DNA of 15,692 nucleotides from Nostoc sp. GT001 (GTDB taxonomy: Bacteria; Cyanobacteriota; Cyanobacteriia; Cyanobacteriales; Nostocaceae), in contig NZ_JAUDRJ010000003.1 in NCBI RefSeq assembly GCF_030382115.1, positions 4,155,027 to 4,170,718 on the forward strand, given 5' to 3'. The translations under genes and the position numbers were made by a program. A model generated the notes under the pieces. It was not told the DNA's origin and did no database searches. It was given only the letters and a program-made list of their open reading frames with translations. The first letter of the stretch is position 1. Each line of letters begins with the position of its first letter. This document shows positions 1,406 to 8,704 of the stretch, in pieces.

Positions 1406-1478
1406 TTGCTAAAATCAATTTGCTTAATTTACAACATCTCAGTACAGTAAACTTAAAAGCAGTTTGAAGGTCATAAAA

Positions 1479-2225
1479 ATGACGACTCAAAAAAGGATTG
1501 CTGTAGTCACAGGAAGTAACCGAGGGCTAGGATATGCAATTTCCCGTCAATTATCCCAAATTGGCAACCGCGTAATTCTGACGAGTCGTAATGAAACAGA
1601 TGGTCTTGCTGCCAAGCAGCAGTTATCGAGTGAAGGGCTTGATGTTGACTATCACAAGCTGGATGTTACCAATGATGGAAGCGTGCAGCAGTTTACCGAA
1701 TGGTTGCGTGAAACTTACGGTAAAGTAGATATTCTGGTCAACAATGCAGGTGTAAATCCCACAACCAAGCCTGAAGAGTCCAGCTTACTGACTGTCCAAC
1801 TGGAAACGATGCGATCTACCTTTGAAACTAATGTTTTAGCGGTACTCAGAATTTCTCAAGCATTAATTCCGTTAATGAAGGTGCAAAACTACGGTCGCAT
1901 TGTCAATATCTCAACGGAAATGGCGTCTCTAGCGTCAGTTTCAAGTGACTACTACCCTTTAGCACCTTCCTACCGACTCTCAAAAGTAGGAGTAAATGGA
2001 CTAACAGCAATTCTGGGGAAAGAACTTCAAGGTGCTAACATTCTCGTAAATGCCTATTCTCCAGGTTGGATGAAGACCGATATGGGAGGAGATGATGCTC
2101 CTTTCACAGCAGAAGAAGGAGCGCAAACAGCTGTTTATTTGGCAACACTTCCCGATGGAGGAGCGCAAGGACTATTTTTTGCAGAGATGCGAAAGTTTGG
2201 TGGCCCCATTCAATTACAGTGGTAG
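1479..2225 (+). CDS. Short-chain dehydrogenase/reductase (carbonyl reductase-like)
   Basis: A 248-residue classical SDR with a Rossmann fold that would reduce a carbonyl, or oxidise an alcohol, with NAD(P)H. Visible motifs are the cofactor loop TGSNRGLG (residues 11-18), NNAG (88-91), the catalytic Ser145 in VNIST, and YRLSK with Tyr165 and Lys169. The late YSPGWMKTDM segment resembles plant and animal carbonyl reductases. I chose ATG 1479 because GAAGG lies 8 nt upstream; an in-frame TTG at 1464 would add five residues but has no clear ribosome site. Its stop is 6 nt before the SMP-30-like gene, so the two are probably one operon. The substrate cannot be told from the sequence. Confidence 0.92.
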   Translation: MTTQKRIAVVTGSNRGLGYAISRQLSQIGNRVILTSRNETDGLAAKQQLSSEGLDVDYHKLDVTNDGSVQQFTEWLRETYGKVDILVNNAGVNPTTKPEESSLLTVQLETMRSTFETNVLAVLRISQALIPLMKVQNYGRIVNISTEMASLASVSSDYYPLAPSYRLSKVGVNGLTAILGKELQGANILVNAYSPGWMKTDMGGDDAPFTAEEGAQTAVYLATLPDGGAQGLFFAEMRKFGGPIQLQW

Positions 2226-2231
2226 GTTAAT

Positions 2232-3170
2232 ATGGGAAATTCCGCAGTTTTACCGCCGATTTACGCAGATACAACTATTGAATTAGCACCAGCTAAAGTT
2301 GTCACCTCATTCCCCATTAATACTTTTTTAGAAAATCTAGCAATCGCACCAGATGGCACAATATTTGTAACTAATCACGAAGTTGGCGAGATTGTTCGTA
2401 TTAGTCCAGATGGCAATCAGCAGATTCATGCCACTCTTGAGGGTAAAGTGAGTGGTCTTGCTTTCACTGCAAACGGGGGTTTAGTGGCAACAGGCTGGAA
2501 TGCTGATTCTATACCAGTGATTTCTTTAGTTGCCAGTGATGGGACAGTGGAAACCTTGCTGAAACTGCCAGATGCAATATTTCTCAATGGCATCACTCCT
2601 CTTTCTGACACTCAGTATTTAGCAGCAGATTCTTATCGGGGTGCAATTTGGCTGATTGATATCGCTCAACCTCGCGCCTCAATTTGGCTAGAACATCCAA
2701 TGCTTGCTCGCAGCAATTCGGAAAATGTCATTCCGGCTGCAAATGGTTTGAAGCGTTTTGGTGATTTTCTCTACGTTTCAAATACGGAAAAAATGTTGCT
2801 GTTGCGAATTCCCGTCGATACCGCAAATCGACCAGGTGAGCCGGAAATTTTTGTTGAGCAAACTAATATTGATGACTTCGCCTTTGACGTGGAAGGGAAT
2901 CTTTATGGAGCGACGCATATTTACAACAGTGTTGTGCGAATTGCAAGCGATCGCAGTACTACTATTATTGCTCAAGCCGAGCAAGGTGTAATTGGCAGCA
3001 CAGCCGTGGCTTTTGGTCAAACTGAAGGCGATGTCTACGACGGGCTACGCCTACGCACCGCAATTTATGTTGTGACTAATGGTGGAATGTTTTTACCTCC
3101 ACCCACTGGTGTCGTTCCTGCTAATGTTGTTCGGCTTGAAGTTGGAAAACCTGGATATCCCTTAGCTTGA
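2232..3170 (+). CDS. SMP-30/gluconolactonase-like beta-propeller protein
   Basis: A 312-residue protein with propeller-blade repeats of the type [19 protein letters not shown] (about residues 36-56), followed by similar DG-containing blades. This matches the SMP-30/gluconolactonase/LRE-like superfamily, whose members are metal-dependent lactonases or of unknown function. No signal peptide is obvious. It starts 6 nt after the SDR stop, with AGG in GGTAGG overlapping that stop as the likely ribosome site, so translation may be coupled. Near the C-terminus the run DGLRLRT is encoded by a short nucleotide repeat (see 3042-3056) and looks like an in-frame insertion. The exact reaction is not known; a role with the SDR on a shared small molecule is inferred from the operon only. 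Confidence 0.8.
3042..3056 (+). repeat. Short GC-rich repeat inside the SMP-30-like gene
   Basis: GGGCTACGCCTACGC contains CTACGC twice in tandem and encodes GLRLR. Similar short GC-rich words are dispersed in Nostocales genomes, usually between genes; a related GCTACGCGTAGC occurs at 7457-7468. Here the reading frame stays open. Confidence 0.5.
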
Positions 3171-3193
3171 GCGTGACCGAATTTTATATTTTA

Positions 3194-3225
3194 AATTTGG
3201 GATTTTCAATTGAAAATCCCAAATT
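3194..3225. repeat. 32-bp perfect palindrome, possible bidirectional terminator
   Basis: AATTTGGGATTTTCAA (3194-3209) is followed directly by its exact reverse complement. It lies 24 bp after the SMP-30-like stop, where a transcript hairpin could end the operon. There is no clean U-run after it on the plus strand. It also resembles a dispersed Nostoc intergenic palindrome. Confidence 0.6.
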
Positions 3226-3296
3226 GCTACTCGCTCTGCAATTGGTAAGCTCAACCGCATTTAGTTTGCATAATCTGAAATTGTAAATTTCTTGTG

Positions 3297-3317
3297 GGGT
3301 GGGCGTCTCGCCCGCCC
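3297..3317. repeat. GC-rich hairpin repeat
   Basis: GGGTGGGCG (3297-3305) pairs with CGCCCGCCC (3309-3317), with one T-G pair and a TCT loop. It stands out from AT-rich surroundings and looks like a dispersed cyanobacterial intergenic hairpin. Confidence 0.5.
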
Positions 3318-3393
3318 AATATATGCAAATTAAATGTGGAACAGTTTAAACTACGTGAAAAAATCTAAAATCCACAATTGATTGGCATAACTA

Positions 3394-3960
3394 ATGGAGA
3401 TAGAACAGAACGATCAATTTGTAACCGTGGTCATTACACAACTTGTCAAACCAGGATGCGAAACCGCTTACGAAGCTTGGTTGAAAGAGATTACCAGGGT
3501 TTCTAGAACCTATGTAGGTCACATGGGAACAAATGTGATTTGTCCTCAACTTGGGGTGCGAAATGAATATGTGATTATCTTCCGATTTGACAGTTATGAA
3601 AATTTAGATGTGTGGATGACATCGCGCGATCGCGAACATTTGCTCAATCAAGGTAAGCATTTGGTTGAATCCGATCCTTATGTTCAAAAAATTAGTGGAT
3701 TAGAAGCTTGGTTTTCTCTTCCCGGTCAACCCTTAAAAACTCCGCCGCGCTATAAAACAGCCTTGCTAACTTGGGGAGCTGTATATGTGTTGATTAATTT
3801 ATTGAATACGTTCTTAGTACCCCTAATTCGGGCTTTACCACCCTTGATTATTTCGTTGATTATAACGATTACTATGGTTTTGCTATTAACTTATGTTGTC
3901 ATGCCTAGAGTTAGCCGCTTGTTTAGCTTTTGGCTATATCCTAAATCACGAAAAATTTAG
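3394..3960 (+). CDS. ABM-domain protein with two membrane segments
   Basis: 188 residues. Residues 8-108 form a dimeric alpha+beta barrel of the antibiotic-biosynthesis-monooxygenase (ABM) type, with a VTVVITQLVKPG opening, a FRFDSYENLDVW strand-helix and an SGLEAWF end. Residues about 122-145 and 149-171 are hydrophobic and probably cross the membrane, followed by a basic tail (PRVSRLF...KSRK). This layout matches the COG3224-type membrane-bound ABM proteins, whose reaction is unknown. The ATG at 3394 has no strong ribosome site. It converges on hetF, with 158 bp of repeat-containing DNA between the stops. No cofactor residues can be assigned. Confidence 0.8.
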   Translation: MEIEQNDQFVTVVITQLVKPGCETAYEAWLKEITRVSRTYVGHMGTNVICPQLGVRNEYVIIFRFDSYENLDVWMTSRDREHLLNQGKHLVESDPYVQKISGLEAWFSLPGQPLKTPPRYKTALLTWGAVYVLINLLNTFLVPLIRALPPLIISLIITITMVLLLTYVVMPRVSRLFSFWLYPKSRKI

Positions 3961-4054: not shown

Positions 4055-4110
4055 ACTCATTACTCATTACTCATTACTCATTACTCCTTACTCCTTACTC
4101 CTTACTCATC
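4055..4110. repeat. Heptamer tandem repeat (ACTCATT/ACTCCTT), eight units
   Basis: Four ACTCATT units (4055-4082), three ACTCCTT units (4083-4103) and a final ACTCATC run head to tail, just beyond the hetF stop. They match the short tandemly repeated repetitive (STRR) heptamers known from heterocystous cyanobacteria. Such tracts vary in length by slippage. No clear hetF terminator is seen in this gap. Confidence 0.9.
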
Positions 4111-4118
4111 ACAATATA

Positions 4119-6623
4119 TTACTGTTCTTCGCCTTTTTGCTGAAGGAGCGATCGCCAATCTTCAATCGCCTTCTCCGTCCACAGCCAATTTTTAGCTAAT
4201 TTATCTACCTGGAAATTTTCTCGGTCGGACTTAAGAACTGTTTGTCGCAATTTGATCGCTTCATTCAGATATTGCGTCTGCTTTCCATTAGATTGACTAA
4301 GTGCAGATTTATACAATCCAAGAGCTAAACCAGCATAAGAAGTTAAAGCATCTTGAGGAACTGCTGTATTTCTGGATGTTGAGTTTGTGTTCTGTTCTTT
4401 GAGAGCTAAATTCAAAGCCTTGAACCAAGCATCATTGGCGCGATTCAGATTGCCTTCTGTGTAGTAGGCAAATCCCAAAGCGTTATTATACAAAAGCGAT
4501 TCGGGTTTAGCTTTGGCAGCAGTTTCCCAATAACGACGGGCATCATCGACACTATAGTTATTGTCTCCAGTTTGGATCGACTGCCACGCCAATCTTCCCT
4601 TGTAAAAATTCACAGAGGGATCGTCAGCTTGTTTACTAGGAATTAGTTTTAAGGAAGTTTCAGCCGCAGCCAGTGCGCCCCGATTCAGTAGTTCTTCTAC
4701 AGCCAATAGCCCACCTTGCAAGTCACCCTGGCTCAATTTTTCCGTAGCAGTAGCAGTGACAATTCCAGTGGGTGCTATTCCTAAATCGATATTCGGCTGC
4801 TTTTGAATCGGTCGAGAATCAGGTAGAGACTGGGCAGGAATTTCTGGTATTTTAGGCAGTGCTTGGGGGCGATTTTGCCACCACCAATTTAAACCGATCG
4901 CAGCGGCGATCGCACTGATCCCCACAACACCCACAATCGGCCACAGTTTGCGGCGACGGGTACGATTTCTTGGCGGGGGTGGTTGCGATTGCGAAAAATT
5001 AGAATTTTGCCAATTTTCTTCAAGGTTTCCTGGAGTTGCAGGTGGCGGTGGTGGAACTTCTCCCCACAAATCTGCTGACTCTTCAGAGGAAATGACTTCC
5101 TCAGAAATCTGGCTTTGGTGAAGACTATTTTCGCGAATTTGTTGATCCGGTTCAGTTGGAGGTTTTTGGTTATCTAGCTGACGAAACAAATCCGAAACGA
5201 TTGCAGAATCTTCTTCATAGCTTGGGTCATCATACTCAATTTCATCAACCAGATCGCCCCAAGTATCTTCACCCAGCCAGTCCAACCCAGAAGAGTCCCG
5301 CGTCAAACCAGAAGGAATCATGTCTTCCATTCCTAAAGGCATCTCGCTATCATCAGGTATACCAGGGTACATCGTGGAAGTTGCCCCTAAAGGCGAACTA
5401 TACTGATTCAGCGACTCCGTACTTGCGGATACCTCAGTTTCCTGACTCAGAAAACCGTCAAATTCTGGCTGAAGATATAAAATCGGTAATGCCCAGTACA
5501 TCTGGAGAGAACCATAAGCAGAAATTAATCCTTGGCGCACCCTACTTACACACAAATCTACTGGATATCCCTGACTCAAGTTGCGGTAAAACAATTGTGT
5601 GAGCGTCAATGCCACTTCATCAGGAATCCTTTCTGACATCGCCAAAACGCTTCTAATTCCTCGTTTCACGAGACTTTCCGCTAAGTTTCGTTCGCCAGTA
5701 TCTCCAGAGGGATTGGACGCTGCTGTGTATGCGCCCAAGCAGGAATTAAACACTGCCATTTGGATATTATTATTGACGAGCAAACCTGCCAAATCGTCTC
5801 CAGTCAAGATTTCCGTTAAGCCAGTTCTGCGACTAACAAGATAAATTTCTCCGCCATTTGCGCCTAAATTACTATGACCAGAGTAGTGGAGAACGTGGTA
5901 TCTGCCTTGTTCTAGGGCTTGCGTCAGTTCTTCCCGCCCTGGTTGGTCTAATACAGTGAGTTCAATTTCGGGGAAACGATTCCGACTTTCACCAGGTCGT
6001 GACGTTTGACGGTGAAGTTCCGTTTGTAGTTTAATCGCTTCTTGTTTCTGTAAGTCAAGACGGACTTGATCTGAGGGGGAAGCAATTACCATCAAGACTC
6101 TGACACCACCTTGTTCTGGTGGTGTGGGCATATTTTGCGACCGCAAAGGAGAAGCCCCCGAAATTCCACTTTGGAAGCGAGAAAAAGCCACATAAGGCCC
6201 AGTAGCCAGAGGGCGATCGCCTGCGTGCATTACTTCCCAAGGCAAACGAGCTAATCTAGTATCTTTTAGCCCCAAGCGTAAGCGTAGTACTTGCTGATGG
6301 TTCTGGGCAATACCTTGGGCAGTAATCCAACTATCTCTGAGAGTGCCTTGAAATAGGGCGTTATAAAATTGTTGACCCAACGCCACCAAATTCACAGAGT
6401 TTCTGGCGATATCGCTTTCATGGCCACCAGAGGTGAATGGATCTCCCTGCAACACCGAATTCAACGGGTCATTCATCAAATGCCCAGCAGCCATCAACCA
6501 ATCAGCTATAGGCCAAGTCACCAATTCTTCTGCCAATGGTACCCCAGGCGCGACTTGTTCCGTCCGCACCAAGTAGTCATTTTGCCCTACTGGGGTTACG
6601 GAAATATGGAATTCCTGGGTCAC
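4119..6623 (-). CDS. hetF: HetF, CHAT-domain regulator of heterocyst differentiation
   Basis: 834 residues. In Anabaena/Nostoc, HetF is needed for heterocyst formation and, with PatA, controls the level and activity of HetR. The N-terminal half is a CHAT (caspase-like) domain, about residues 75-390, with the His-Cys pair visible as His246 in LHYSGH and Cys295 in FNSCLG. Residues 400-550 are acidic and proline-rich, probably disordered. One membrane segment lies at about 561-582 after RTRRRK, so the CHAT part is probably cytoplasmic. Residues 630-820 contain TPR-like helices (YNNALGFAYYTEGNLNRA). The start is GTG 6623, set by AGGAG five nt upstream. The NsiR1 array lies upstream on the opposite strand, as in PCC 7120, which together with the domain order makes the name firm. 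Confidence 0.95.
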   Translation of the reverse strand: MTQEFHISVTPVGQNDYLVRTEQVAPGVPLAEELVTWPIADWLMAAGHLMNDPLNSVLQGDPFTSGGHESDIARNSVNLVALGQQFYNALFQGTLRDSWITAQGIAQNHQQVLRLRLGLKDTRLARLPWEVMHAGDRPLATGPYVAFSRFQSGISGASPLRSQNMPTPPEQGGVRVLMVIASPSDQVRLDLQKQEAIKLQTELHRQTSRPGESRNRFPEIELTVLDQPGREELTQALEQGRYHVLHYSGHSNLGANGGEIYLVSRRTGLTEILTGDDLAGLLVNNNIQMAVFNSCLGAYTAASNPSGDTGERNLAESLVKRGIRSVLAMSERIPDEVALTLTQLFYRNLSQGYPVDLCVSRVRQGLISAYGSLQMYWALPILYLQPEFDGFLSQETEVSASTESLNQYSSPLGATSTMYPGIPDDSEMPLGMEDMIPSGLTRDSSGLDWLGEDTWGDLVDEIEYDDPSYEEDSAIVSDLFRQLDNQKPPTEPDQQIRENSLHQSQISEEVISSEESADLWGEVPPPPPATPGNLEENWQNSNFSQSQPPPPRNRTRRRKLWPIVGVVGISAIAAAIGLNWWWQNRPQALPKIPEIPAQSLPDSRPIQKQPNIDLGIAPTGIVTATATEKLSQGDLQGGLLAVEELLNRGALAAAETSLKLIPSKQADDPSVNFYKGRLAWQSIQTGDNNYSVDDARRYWETAAKAKPESLLYNNALGFAYYTEGNLNRANDAWFKALNLALKEQNTNSTSRNTAVPQDALTSYAGLALGLYKSALSQSNGKQTQYLNEAIKLRQTVLKSDRENFQVDKLAKNWLWTEKAIEDWRSLLQQKGEEQ

Positions 6624-6628
6624 AACTT

Positions 6629-6633
6629 CTCCT
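6629..6633 (-). promoter_or_regulatory. Shine-Dalgarno of hetF
   Basis: AGGAG read on the minus strand, 5 nt before the GTG start codon. It fixes the otherwise ambiguous non-ATG start. About 170 bp separate it from the nearest NsiR1 gene, so a hetF mRNA beginning beyond 6863 would carry a leader complementary to at least one NsiR1. Confidence 0.75.
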
Positions 6634-6800
6634 GTCCGCCTCCTAAATCTGGTTTGAAACGCGAAAGTTTCAAGTCGATTTTTCGCTTTCTCTGATAATT
6701 TAGATGCATCCTGCCCCTGAATGTTTCTGATTCGGTGTCGTTTTGGTTTTTTGCCTTTACAACTTTATCCGGATCGGATTACTTGGGTCTAGAACACTTA

Positions 6801-6863
6801 ATTGGTAGATGCACCTTGATCTTCAACTCCCCTAGTTGGCTAACACCCACTGGGGGTTTTTTT
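6801..6863 (+). ncRNA. nsiR1: NsiR1 copy 1 (hetF-proximal, full length)
   Basis: The conserved unit is ATTGGTAGATGCACC..., then CCCCTAGT pairing with ACTGGGGG and a run of seven T (6857-6863), a Rho-independent terminator. Upstream lie TCCGGA (6768-6773) and TAGAAC (6790-6795), 22 bp start to start, which is the DIF-type promoter of early heterocyst genes in PCC 7120. The transcript would be about 63 nt. The start site is estimated from the -10 box and is not exact. It is the copy most likely to overlap the hetF leader in antisense. Confidence 0.9.
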
Positions 6864-6938
6864 ATTTTTGGCAAACAACAGCAACTTCTGACGCAGATAT
6901 TCTCTACCAGAAAATAGTGCTTAATCCTAGAATACTTG

Positions 6939-7005
6939 ATTAATAGATGGATGTCCCTTGATCTTTAACTCCCCTAATTGAGTTAATATCCACTTTGGTT
7001 TTTTT
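6939..7005 (+). ncRNA. nsiR1: NsiR1 copy 2 (diverged)
   Basis: It aligns with copy 1 at a constant offset of 138, but ATTGGTAGAT has become ATTAATAGAT and the 3' stem is broken (CCCCTAAT against CTTTGG), though seven T remain (6999-7005). The -35 position reads ACCAGA (6906-6911), two changes from TCCGGA; the -10 is TAGAAT (6928-6933). It may be a decaying copy, or a divergent RNA with altered promoter response. Confidence 0.75.
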
Positions 7006-7073
7006 GACACACGATAACAATCAATTTTCTCATAAATTTATCCGGAGCATGGTGGTTAAACCTAGAACATTTA

Positions 7074-7136
7074 AGTGGTAGATGCACCCTGATAACTAGC
7101 TCCCCTGGTTGGCTAACGCCCACTGGGGGTTTTTTT
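7074..7136 (+). ncRNA. nsiR1: NsiR1 copy 3 (full length)
   Basis: TCCGGA at 7041-7046 and TAGAAC at 7063-7068, 22 bp start to start as in copy 1. The 5' end is diverged slightly (AAGTGGTAGATGCACC). The terminator is CCCCTGGT...ACTGGGGG with seven T (7130-7136). Between copies 2 and 3 only AT-rich spacer is seen. Confidence 0.9.
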
Positions 7137-7201
7137 ATGAAAATTGAGTCCTATTGATTAACCTGACACACCTATTTTGTCAGGCAGCGCGCCGAGCGTT
7201 T

Positions 7202-7233
7202 AATTGGTAGGTCTGTCTTGATAACTAACCCCT
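7202..7233 (+). ncRNA. nsiR1: NsiR1 copy 4 (5' fragment, no promoter)
   Basis: AATTGGTAG and CTTGATAACTAACCCCT match the first half of the unit, after which similarity stops; the terminator is gone. The promoter positions hold ACCTAT and CCGAGC, so neither box is present. It is a remnant, probably silent. Confidence 0.55.
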
Positions 7234-7320
7234 TTGAGGTTGTTCTTTGAGCAACAAATAGTAAAAGCTTCAACCTCTGCTAATTTATCCGGTAGCCACC
7301 CATTTATTTTAGAAAAGATT

Positions 7321-7382
7321 ATTGGTAGATGCACCCTGATAACTCACTCCCCTGGTTGGTTAATACCCACTGGGGGTTTTTT
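7321..7382 (+). ncRNA. nsiR1: NsiR1 copy 5 (full length)
   Basis: The -35 box is TCCGGT (7288-7293), one change from the motif; the -10 is TAGAAA (7310-7315), at the usual 22 bp. The RNA body is ATTGGTAGATGCACCCTG..., with a CCCCTGGT/ACTGGGGG stem and six T (7377-7382). Confidence 0.88.
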
Positions 7383-7569
7383 CTAGTTACGTCACTGATA
7401 GCGATCGCGAATGCGTCTCGTAGAAAAATGTTAGCGAGTCTTTTGCTCCCAGAGATGCTACGCGTAGCTTGCTTTTTCATAGAGGTACGAGCTTTACAGC
7501 CCATCGTAGACATCGCCTCTAATTTAGTCCATTTTTCCCGGAAGATGCTAGCTGCCCCTAGAAAAGATT

Positions 7570-7632
7570 ATTGGTAGATGCACCCTGATAACTCACTCCC
7601 CTAGTAGGCTAACACCCACTGGGGGTTTTTTT
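7570..7632 (+). ncRNA. nsiR1: NsiR1 copy 6 (full length)
   Basis: The -35 box is CCCGGA (7537-7542), embedded in the duplicated spacer, and the -10 is TAGAAA (7559-7564). The body ends with a CCCCTAGT/ACTGGGGG hairpin and seven T (7626-7632). A promoterless partial unit follows 14 bp later, so read-through would meet a second terminator. Confidence 0.88.
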
Positions 7633-7646
7633 ATTTAAAAAATAAC

Positions 7647-7698
7647 TGACCCTGATAACTCACTCCCCTGATAGGTTAACACCCACTGGGAGTTTTTT
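7647..7698 (+). ncRNA. nsiR1: NsiR1 copy 7 (5'-truncated, promoterless)
   Basis: The unit begins inside the RNA at TGACCCTGATAACTCACTCC; TTGGTAGATGCA and both promoter boxes are missing. The 3' hairpin is intact but altered: ACTCCC pairs fully with GGGAGT, then T-run 7693-7698. It probably acts as a backup terminator for copy 6, or is a by-product of recombination. Confidence 0.7.
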
Positions 7699-7877
7699 CT
7701 ACTACTTGCGTTACCAATAGCGATCGCAAATGCCTCTGTTAGACAAATTTTCGCCAGTCTTTCTCTCAGAGATGCTTTACTTCTCCATAAAGGTACGAGC
7801 TTTACAGCCCATCGTAGACATCGCCTCTGATTTAGTCCATTTTTCCCGGAAGATGCTAGCTGCCCCTAGAAAAGATT

Positions 7878-7940
7878 ATTGGTAGATGCACCCTGATAAC
7901 TCACTCCCCTAGTAGGCTAACACCCACTGGGGGTTTTTTT
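7878..7940 (+). ncRNA. nsiR1: NsiR1 copy 8 (full length)
   Basis: The -35 is CCCGGA (7845-7850) and the -10 TAGAAA (7867-7872), spaced 22 bp. The RNA body appears identical to copy 6, with seven T at 7934-7940. It is a product of the 308-bp duplication. Confidence 0.88.
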
Positions 7941-7954
7941 ATTTAAAAAATAAC

Positions 7955-8006
7955 TGACCCTGATAACTCACTCCCCTGATAGGTTAACACCCACTGGGAA
8001 TTTTTT
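7955..8006 (+). ncRNA. nsiR1: NsiR1 copy 9 (5'-truncated, promoterless)
   Basis: Sister of the unit at 7647, with the same truncation point. Its stem reads ACTCCC against GGGAAT, so one C-G pair is lost relative to the sister; T-run 8001-8006. No promoter box is present. Confidence 0.68.
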
Positions 8007-8186
8007 CTACTACTTGCGTTACCAATAGCGATCGCAAATGCGTCTCGTAGAGAGATATTTGCGAGTCTTTTTCTCTCAGGGATGCTTTACTTCTTCATAG
8101 AGGTACGAGCTTTACAGCCCATCGTAGACATCGCCTCTAATTTAGTCCATTTTTCCCGGAAGATGCTGGCTGCCCTAGAAAAGATT

Positions 8187-8249
8187 ATTGGTAGATGCAC
8201 CCTGATAACTAACTCCCCTAGTAGGCTAACACCCACTGGGGGTTTTTTT
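8187..8249 (+). ncRNA. nsiR1: NsiR1 copy 10 (full length)
   Basis: CCCGGA at 8155-8160 and TAGAAA at 8176-8181 are 21 bp apart start to start, one less than all other copies because a C is missing from CTGCCCTAG. This could change promoter strength. The terminator is CCCCTAGT/ACTGGGGG with seven T (8243-8249). Downstream, AATTGACC is a last trace of the truncated unit seen after copies 6 and 8. Confidence 0.87.
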
Positions 8250-8315
8250 ATTTAAAAAATAATTGACCTTTGTACAAATTTATCCGGAGTATGGTCTTCA
8301 ACCTGAGAACACTTA

Positions 8316-8379
8316 ATTGGTAGATGCACCCTGATAACTAACTCCCCTAGTAGGCTAACACCCACTGGGGGTTTTTTTT
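8316..8379 (+). ncRNA. nsiR1: NsiR1 copy 11 (hetF-distal, full length)
   Basis: TCCGGA at 8283-8288 with the upstream sequence AAATTTATCCGGAG, as in copy 3. The -10 position reads GAGAAC (8305-8310) in place of TAGAAC, so this promoter may be weaker. The body matches copies 6, 8 and 10 closely, with a T-run of eight (8372-8379). It ends the array. Confidence 0.87.
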
Positions 8380-8704
8380 GCCGTAGACGCGTAGTGGTGA
8401 GCCACATAACCGGGAGTACATCACTCTGGTAGATCTTGAGTATCCTCCTGTTGACAGGATAGAGCGTAACTTACTCACTCAATCTCTGAATCGCTTTCTT
8501 TTTATTGTGAGCTAGAGATGCTACTTCAAAATGATTGCTATGATATTTAATCACATTCTTAATTTTTTTTATATATTTTGACGAGTTCCCTTTTAACTTT
8601 CACTATTTGTCTGCCTCAGCAAAACTTACCTTCTTACTCAGCACAGACTAACAAACTAAATGCCACGCTACCGCTAACAGCACTCCTCAAACAATTGAAA
8701 ACTG
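8380..8704. other. Intergenic region beyond the NsiR1 array
   Basis: No gene is supported. A GTAGACGCGTAGTGG word near 8383 resembles dispersed Nostocales repeats, and CCTGTTGACAGG near 8447 could form a small hairpin. The rest is AT-rich. It lies after the convergent stop of the FHA gene and shows no U-tailed terminator for it. Confidence 0.5.

Follow-up and report, generated by a model that had tools for sequence, protein, structure and literature searches.

The NsiR1 array opposite hetF in Nostoc sp. GT001, probably an amplified member of a dispersed, HetR-associated family of small RNAs

We analysed a stretch of 15,692 nucleotides (nt) from the cyanobacterium Nostoc sp. GT001 (assembly GCF_030382115.1, contig NZ_JAUDRJ010000003.1, positions 4,155,027 to 4,170,718 of the forward strand), here called the window, in which the gene hetF stands back to back with a tandem array of units of the small RNA NsiR1. 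It is likely that the first unit acts as an antisense RNA on hetF, and that the other copies raise the dose of the RNA and act chiefly in trans, as part of a dispersed family of small RNAs associated with HetR. An array next to hetF and the antisense repression of hetF are already known in Nostoc sp. PCC 7120. The comparison of genomes recasts this known array as what appears to be a single antisense pair that was turned into an array, and the NsiR1 family as one defined by the 5' end of the RNA and not by its location at hetF.

The array and the hetF leader

On the minus strand, hetF occupies positions 4119-6623 as an open reading frame of 834 amino acids (Pfam CHAT domain PF12770, E 1.5e-25; 80 relatives). 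The array lies on the plus strand at 6803-8379 and consists of 11 NsiR1-like units, seven of them intact, one diverged and three fragments. We searched with the Rfam covariance model of NsiR1, RF02399, whose gathering score of 39 bits served as the cut-off and which also gives matches in an Escherichia coli control, below that cut-off. It was exceeded by 7 of the 11 units, those starting at 6803, 7076, 7323, 7572, 7880, 8189 and 8318 (67.7-77.3 bits, E 7.6e-12 to 3.1e-14). Two matches stayed below it, at 7647-7700 (28.8 bits) and 7955-8008 (25.1 bits); the diverged unit 2 (about 6944-7005) and a 5' half-unit fragment without a terminator (about 7205-7245) were recovered by a direct-repeat search.

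The motif DIF1 is TCCGGA at -35 (PMC6133370). With at most one mismatch, TCCGGA starts 36-37 nt before GTAG in all seven intact units, against a background of 1.2% of the positions in the region. The boxes are TCCGGA at 6768-6773 for unit 1 (6803-6864, the equivalent of NsiR1.1, with a CACCTT form and 67.7 bits), TCCGGA at 7041-7046 for unit 3 (7076-7137), TCCGGT at 7288-7293 for unit 5 (7323-7384), CCCGGA at 7537-7542, 7845-7850 and 8155-8160 for units 6 (7572-7633), 8 (7880-7941) and 10 (8189-8250), and TCCGGA at 8283-8288 for unit 11 (8318-8379). Neither exception, the diverged unit or the 5' fragment, has such a box (0 of 2), and the fragments at 7647 and 7955 have lost the 5' end, the part that a -35 box would precede. 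Transcription of every unit from its own promoter is thus unlikely, the four imperfect ones being without a box or a 5' end. Units 5-10 lie within a higher-order tandem repeat of 308 base pairs (bp) in 3.0 copies (7333-8268), and several units are accordingly recent duplicates. A sequence-only reading of the window had identified the units as NsiR1, counted them in the same classes on the strand opposite to hetF and noticed TCCGGA and CCCGGA boxes; the covariance search and the direct repeats agree with it, and the boxes proved to stand at -35 of each intact unit.

In PCC 7120, hetF is preceded by 12 NsiR1 copies in tandem, every one of them under a DIF1 promoter; NsiR1.1, which lies antisense to the hetF leader, is reported to inhibit hetF translation, as the sequence-only reading had stated for NsiR1, and NsiR1.4 regulates hetF partially and represses alr3234, a hetP-like gene (PMC9045159). 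The two arrays are alike in their tandem units of about 60 nt opposite hetF, in the individual DIF1-box promoters, and in a copy 1 of slightly different sequence that overlaps the hetF leader (in GT001, the predicted leader), next to remaining copies that are near-identical (PMC9045159, PMC8406250). They differ in that GT001 has 11 units instead of 12, with a degenerate unit 2, three fragments and the 308-bp repeat as the middle of the array. The predicted hetF start of GT001 also lies before unit 2, whereas that of PCC 7120 is reported at -256, inside nsiR1.2 (PMC8406250). Nodularia spumigena CCY9414 likewise has an array of short tandem repeats ahead of hetF, 12 according to the published account (PMC3610870).

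Between units 1 and 2, a block from about -323 to -246 relative to hetF (6869-6946, minus strand) was conserved in an alignment of 15 relatives with the window. We take it as the predicted promoter and start region of hetF, and it fits the start at -256 in PCC 7120 (PMC8406250). If hetF starts within this block, unit 1 alone is complementary to the leader, and the leader probably carries the complement of unit 1 and not of several units. The position of copy 1 fits an antisense RNA to the hetF leader, with a start predicted from conservation and PCC 7120 alone.

The proximal part of the leader (about -120 to -1; 6624-6743, minus strand) is conserved in the alignments and contains, besides a small hairpin and the ribosome site, the element GATGCATCTA. 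The element lies at 6704-6713 on the minus strand, about 80 nt before the hetF start; it is exact in 63 of 80 leaders, and it is complementary to the 5' end of NsiR1 except for one mismatch. RNAalifold found almost no conserved RNA structure in 46 hetF leaders. A terminator-like hairpin at 6650-6677, read on the plus strand, lies opposite the conserved hairpin of the hetF leader, and it could halt antisense transcripts coming out of hetF before they reach the array.

The sequence-only reading had gone further and proposed that the leader is titrated: a long hetF mRNA would start inside the array, carry the complements of several copies and be titrated by all of them. One part of this proposal is supported by the predictions. 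For each of the seven intact units, the predicted duplex with the unit-1 complement spans 61-62 nt, at -101 to -125 kcal/mol, compared with -37 to -75 kcal/mol for the imperfect units and a mean of -32 (best -44.6) kcal/mol for 100 shuffled units, so that each intact copy can form a full-length duplex in the model and trans pairing of the array copies with the hetF leader is plausible. The other part, several complements in one leader, is not supported; the conserved block between units 1 and 2 and the start at -256 in PCC 7120 speak against it (PMC8406250). We consider such titration improbable, also in view of the loci described below.

hetF loci within and beyond the family

Among 80 hetF loci of the type found in the own family of GT001, the Nostocaceae, 75 have an antisense unit and none has a unit on the sense strand; the tally does not count the leader element as a unit (L060, L061, L089, L096, L129). 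In 59 of the 80, a unit lies 170-195 nt from hetF. Where at least 2,000 nt of upstream DNA could be inspected (63 loci), 54 loci have 5-13 units, five have 2-4 and four have none. The upstream DNA of one locus (L136) is limited to 392 nt. The nearest unit is 649-697 nt away from hetF in three loci (L099, L103, L117), a distance that speaks against the titration of one long leader.

The four loci without units argue in the same direction. In Nostoc sp. CHAB 5844, TH1S01 and FACHB-280 and in N. spongiaeforme FACHB-130, no unit was found within 6 kb upstream of hetF, and the arrays are kept elsewhere in the same strains, with 11-14 NsiR1 matches each. A HetF match is absent from the 4-12 kb around these relocated arrays. 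In the four genomes, hetF (67% identical) comes with a different leader, in which an NsiR1 complement is missing. Judged from these sequences, a cis-antisense role on hetF within 6 kb is excluded in the four strains, and their RNA arrays persist. As for the surroundings, the leaders of these uncoupled loci (L118, L121, L127, L132) and of L103 differ from the usual one and contain repeated words similar to TTGAGCAT; one weak sense-strand match occurs at 9374 in L118, downstream of hetF. In all four genomes, one of the relocated arrays (L200, L205, L210, L215) ends towards a conserved gene, whose protein of 197-219 amino acids begins ...MTKVQRLAHKMLQCQEESVRFSVTL...

We collected 30 hetF loci by their similarity to one distant HetF, a choice that leans to a few families. 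Of these, 24 were informative outside-family loci with at least 500 nt of upstream DNA, three more were too short, and three belonged to the own family and had at least three units each. Of the 24 informative loci, 20 have a single antisense unit, complete with terminator and box, at 159-472 nt from the hetF start; the other four were without a unit. Large arrays were observed in the own family only. Of the 20 top NsiR1 matches, 14 adjoin hetF, an unfair sample because these loci were picked as top matches. The pairing of hetF with an antisense NsiR1 is widespread and not universal. In the accessible NsiR1 literature there is no account of a single antisense NsiR1 at hetF outside the own family.

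Sibling loci and rival views of the array

The 5' end of NsiR1, GUAGAUGCACC(C/U)U, is present at three further conserved loci of GT001, where it is followed by other terminators. The 11-mer GTAGATGCACC occurs 18 times in the genome, compared with 0 occurrences of a reversed control. Seven of these belong to the array and five to the three dispersed loci, with a hairpin and a T-run; the remaining six are without these features and look like chance. The first locus, D1, lies between cobM and lgt (G000:C3:706215-706265) and scores 52.1 bits with RF02399, above the cut-off. D2 is a mini-array of three copies beside exoD (3538759-3539103), and D3 lies between gatB and argJ (4920071, minus strand); both have the hairpin and T-run. 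D3 adjoins a second, more diverged copy (4531-4590 and 4420-4475 on the minus strand of L011). Two adjoining Cyano-1 (Yfr2-type) RNAs were also seen in L011, at 7283-7358 and 7443-7518 on the minus strand.

These loci keep their places in many genomes. In the genus sample (G001-G014, without G006, which is incomplete at 72%), D1 and D3 were each found in 13 of 13 genomes and D2 in 12 of the 12 looked at, among the matches listed. Across 10 spread and named Nostocales genomes, D1 stood beside cobM in 10, D2 beside exoD in six and D3 beside gatB/argJ in five, and one extra D2-like unit had different neighbours. We also searched 291 genomes drawn evenly from the order, 29 from the own family and 262 from outside, for a 23-mer of D1 with at most one mismatch; it was present in 29 of 29 and 24 of 262, respectively, and the control gave 0 matches. 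We fetched 18 outside-family D1 loci: cobM is the neighbour in 16, and TCCGGA stands at -35 in 16, the two exceptions to the box belonging to a genus without HetR among the genomes sampled. Within the family set the D1 box is found in 28 of 28 cases, and 43 of 44 D2 units have a DIF box at -35 with at most one mismatch. In one outside-family genome (L257, G181), D1 itself has been amplified, to a tandem of four located between cobM and lgt. At D3 of distant genomes (L234-L241, L243), the TATACT-like -10 is preceded by an inverted repeat, GGGG...CCCC.

The likeness among the siblings is concentrated at their start. Compared with one another, the array, D1, D2, D3 and a distant hetF unit agree at 14 or 12 of the first 14 nt. 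In their 3' parts, D2 and D3 are no closer to an array unit than shuffles are, and for D1 the likeness is slightly above shuffles (6 of 300 as good). A common 5' end with varying terminators and more than one type of promoter is what would be expected from a trans-acting family, and we infer that most targets are paired through the 5' end.

It could be argued that the array is a sink, whose boxes titrate HetR or another regulator, or insulate hetF transcriptionally, with the RNAs as by-products. Seven boxes do lie inside 1.6 kb, and in PCC 7120 the hetF promoter gave similar fluorescence in reporters that contained the array and in those that lacked it (PMC8406250), so that the NsiR1 RNAs need not matter for hetF transcription. 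However, a sink of binding sites does not predict that unlinked loci whose terminators are unrelated should share a conserved RNA 5' end, nor that D3 should retain it without any box, and both overexpression and depletion of NsiR1 give phenotypes in PCC 7120 (PMC9045159). We regard the sink as quite unlikely. Scarcely more credible, and if anything a little less so, is the view that D1-D3 are ordinary terminators or chance matches having an 11-mer in common with NsiR1, which can point to the low RF02399 scores of D2 and D3 and to the six chance-like occurrences, but not to the conservation of place and 5' end in many genomes, to the -35 box likewise conserved at D1 and D2, to the score of D1 or to its 23-mer in every own-family genome with an empty control.

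HetR across the order and the probable working of the family

In the 291 genomes we scored HetR by PF03574 and NsiR1 by RF02399, either at E <= 1e-3 or over the Rfam cut-off. HetR was found in 163 genomes and NsiR1 (E <= 1e-3) in 198. All 163 HetR-positive genomes have NsiR1 at this threshold, compared with 35 of the 128 HetR-negative ones; over the cut-off (181 genomes in total) the counts are 161 of 163 and 20 of 128. The strong cases without HetR come mostly from two families, f32 (10) and f18 (6). One genome in which HetR gave no match (L276, G139) has a tandem of three NsiR1-type units, whose boxes read TCCTGA or TCCGGA. The tie with HetR is tight and many of the genomes are without a recognisable nifH. 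Outside the own family, nifH (TIGR01287 over its cut-off) is absent in 95 of 134 HetR-positive genomes, which suggests, short of proof, that these are non-diazotrophs. The absence is a weak sign because TIGR01287 exceeds its cut-off in only 17 of the 29 own-family genomes, where some of the matches listed are partial or contain a stop codon.

From these data we suggest the following scheme. Each of the seven intact units would be driven by a DIF1-type promoter of its own and give an RNA of about 60 nt that ends at a strong terminator, and by analogy with PCC 7120 this transcription is presumably HetR-dependent and heterocyst-specific. Unit 1 would overlap the hetF leader, pair with it as the leader is made and repress hetF. 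The other units would increase the amount of RNA and would work, mostly in trans, via the 5' end they have in common, with hetF as a target along with further mRNAs, for which alr3234 of PCC 7120 offers a model that may hold in GT001. D1-D3 would supply these targets with RNA from elsewhere in the genome, D3 in response to a different signal. The array would be the amplified form of an older single antisense NsiR1 beside hetF, and the family would consist of dispersed, HetR-associated small RNAs defined by their 5' end. We favour action mainly in trans because the 5' end is dispersed, NsiR1 co-occurs with HetR, single copies are found outside the family and some arrays lie away from hetF.

We lean, by a small degree, to a broader interpretation, in which NsiR1 did not arise as an invention of heterocyst formers and instead forms the small-RNA branch of an ancient HetR circuit, present wherever HetR occurs in the order. 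Taken together with this, many lineages would have kept a single antisense partner of hetF plus the copy between cobM and lgt, and the heterocyst formers would have amplified the hetF copy and kept at least three siblings, with D3 on a non-DIF promoter. HetF of PCC 7120 is a reported component of the divisome. If the interpretation is true, HetR would control division and its own turnover via an RNA, even in non-heterocystous cyanobacteria. The comparison of genomes offers a way into the role of HetR in cyanobacteria without heterocysts, as a single-copy NsiR1 beside hetF is far easier to mutate than a twelve-copy array.

Several observations weigh against our reading. Of 20 further hetF-like loci, selected to sample more distant families broadly, four had antisense units (2-3 each) and 16 had none; several of these matches cover the front part of HetF only and may be paralogues, and the hetF start could be located in 12 of the 20. 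D2 and D3 score 32.6-38.1 bits in GT001, below the cut-off, and are not filed as RF02399 members. A DIF box at -35 was found in 0 of 23 D3 units, so D3 may not be HetR-dependent; since it runs in the same direction as gatB and argJ, between which it lies, it could also represent a terminator or arise as a product of the gatB 3' region. NsiR1 over the cut-off also occurs in the 20 HetR-negative genomes mentioned above, and the Fisher p of 6e-42 for the association of HetR and NsiR1 ignores kinship, related genomes not being independent. Deletion of nsiR1.1 or of its -10 box in PCC 7120 had little effect on the fluorescence of a hetF promoter-gfp fusion (PMC8406250).

To these must be added that we found no convincing trans target besides hetF. 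The leader element GATGCATCTA gave mixed results against dinucleotide-shuffled RNAs: 16 of 100 shuffles paired as well as the array form and 15 of 100 as well as D1, compared with 4 of 100 for D2 (fair) and 0 of 100 for D3 (convincing). We keep the element as a lead and not as a finding. In 14 outside-family hetF leaders, GCATCTA was present within the NsiR1 complement only. A hetP-like target was rejected, because the pairing of five RNA 5' ends with the start region of the GT001 HetP-family gene stayed at the level of shuffles. The gene used was the one HetP-family gene found in GT001 (G000:C3:7280860, L139), not alr3234; four such genes are reported for PCC 7120 (PMC9045159).

There is some precedent for a wider distribution of NsiR1. 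In Limnospira indica PCC 8005, a HetR-bearing host without heterocysts, the 57-nt RNA162 is NsiR1-like; it is reported as one RNA in one strain, and the accessible text contains no HetR association across genomes, no hetF and no sibling loci (PMC8400943). The peptide inhibitor of HetR, as far as its accessible description goes, is similarly tied to HetR beyond the heterocyst formers and has a DIF1-type promoter, but it is a peptide and not an RNA. Sibling loci, arrays away from hetF and the co-occurrence of HetR and NsiR1 are undescribed in the accessible NsiR1 literature, and subscription papers may mention them.

Two other repeats were observed in the window. A CRISPR array with 14 CRISPR-DR5 matches lies at 223-1198 on the plus strand, downstream of hetF and past the genes at 1464-3960. 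Immediately past the 3' end of hetF, the 7-bp sequence ACTCATT is repeated in tandem in 7.9 copies (4055-4109).

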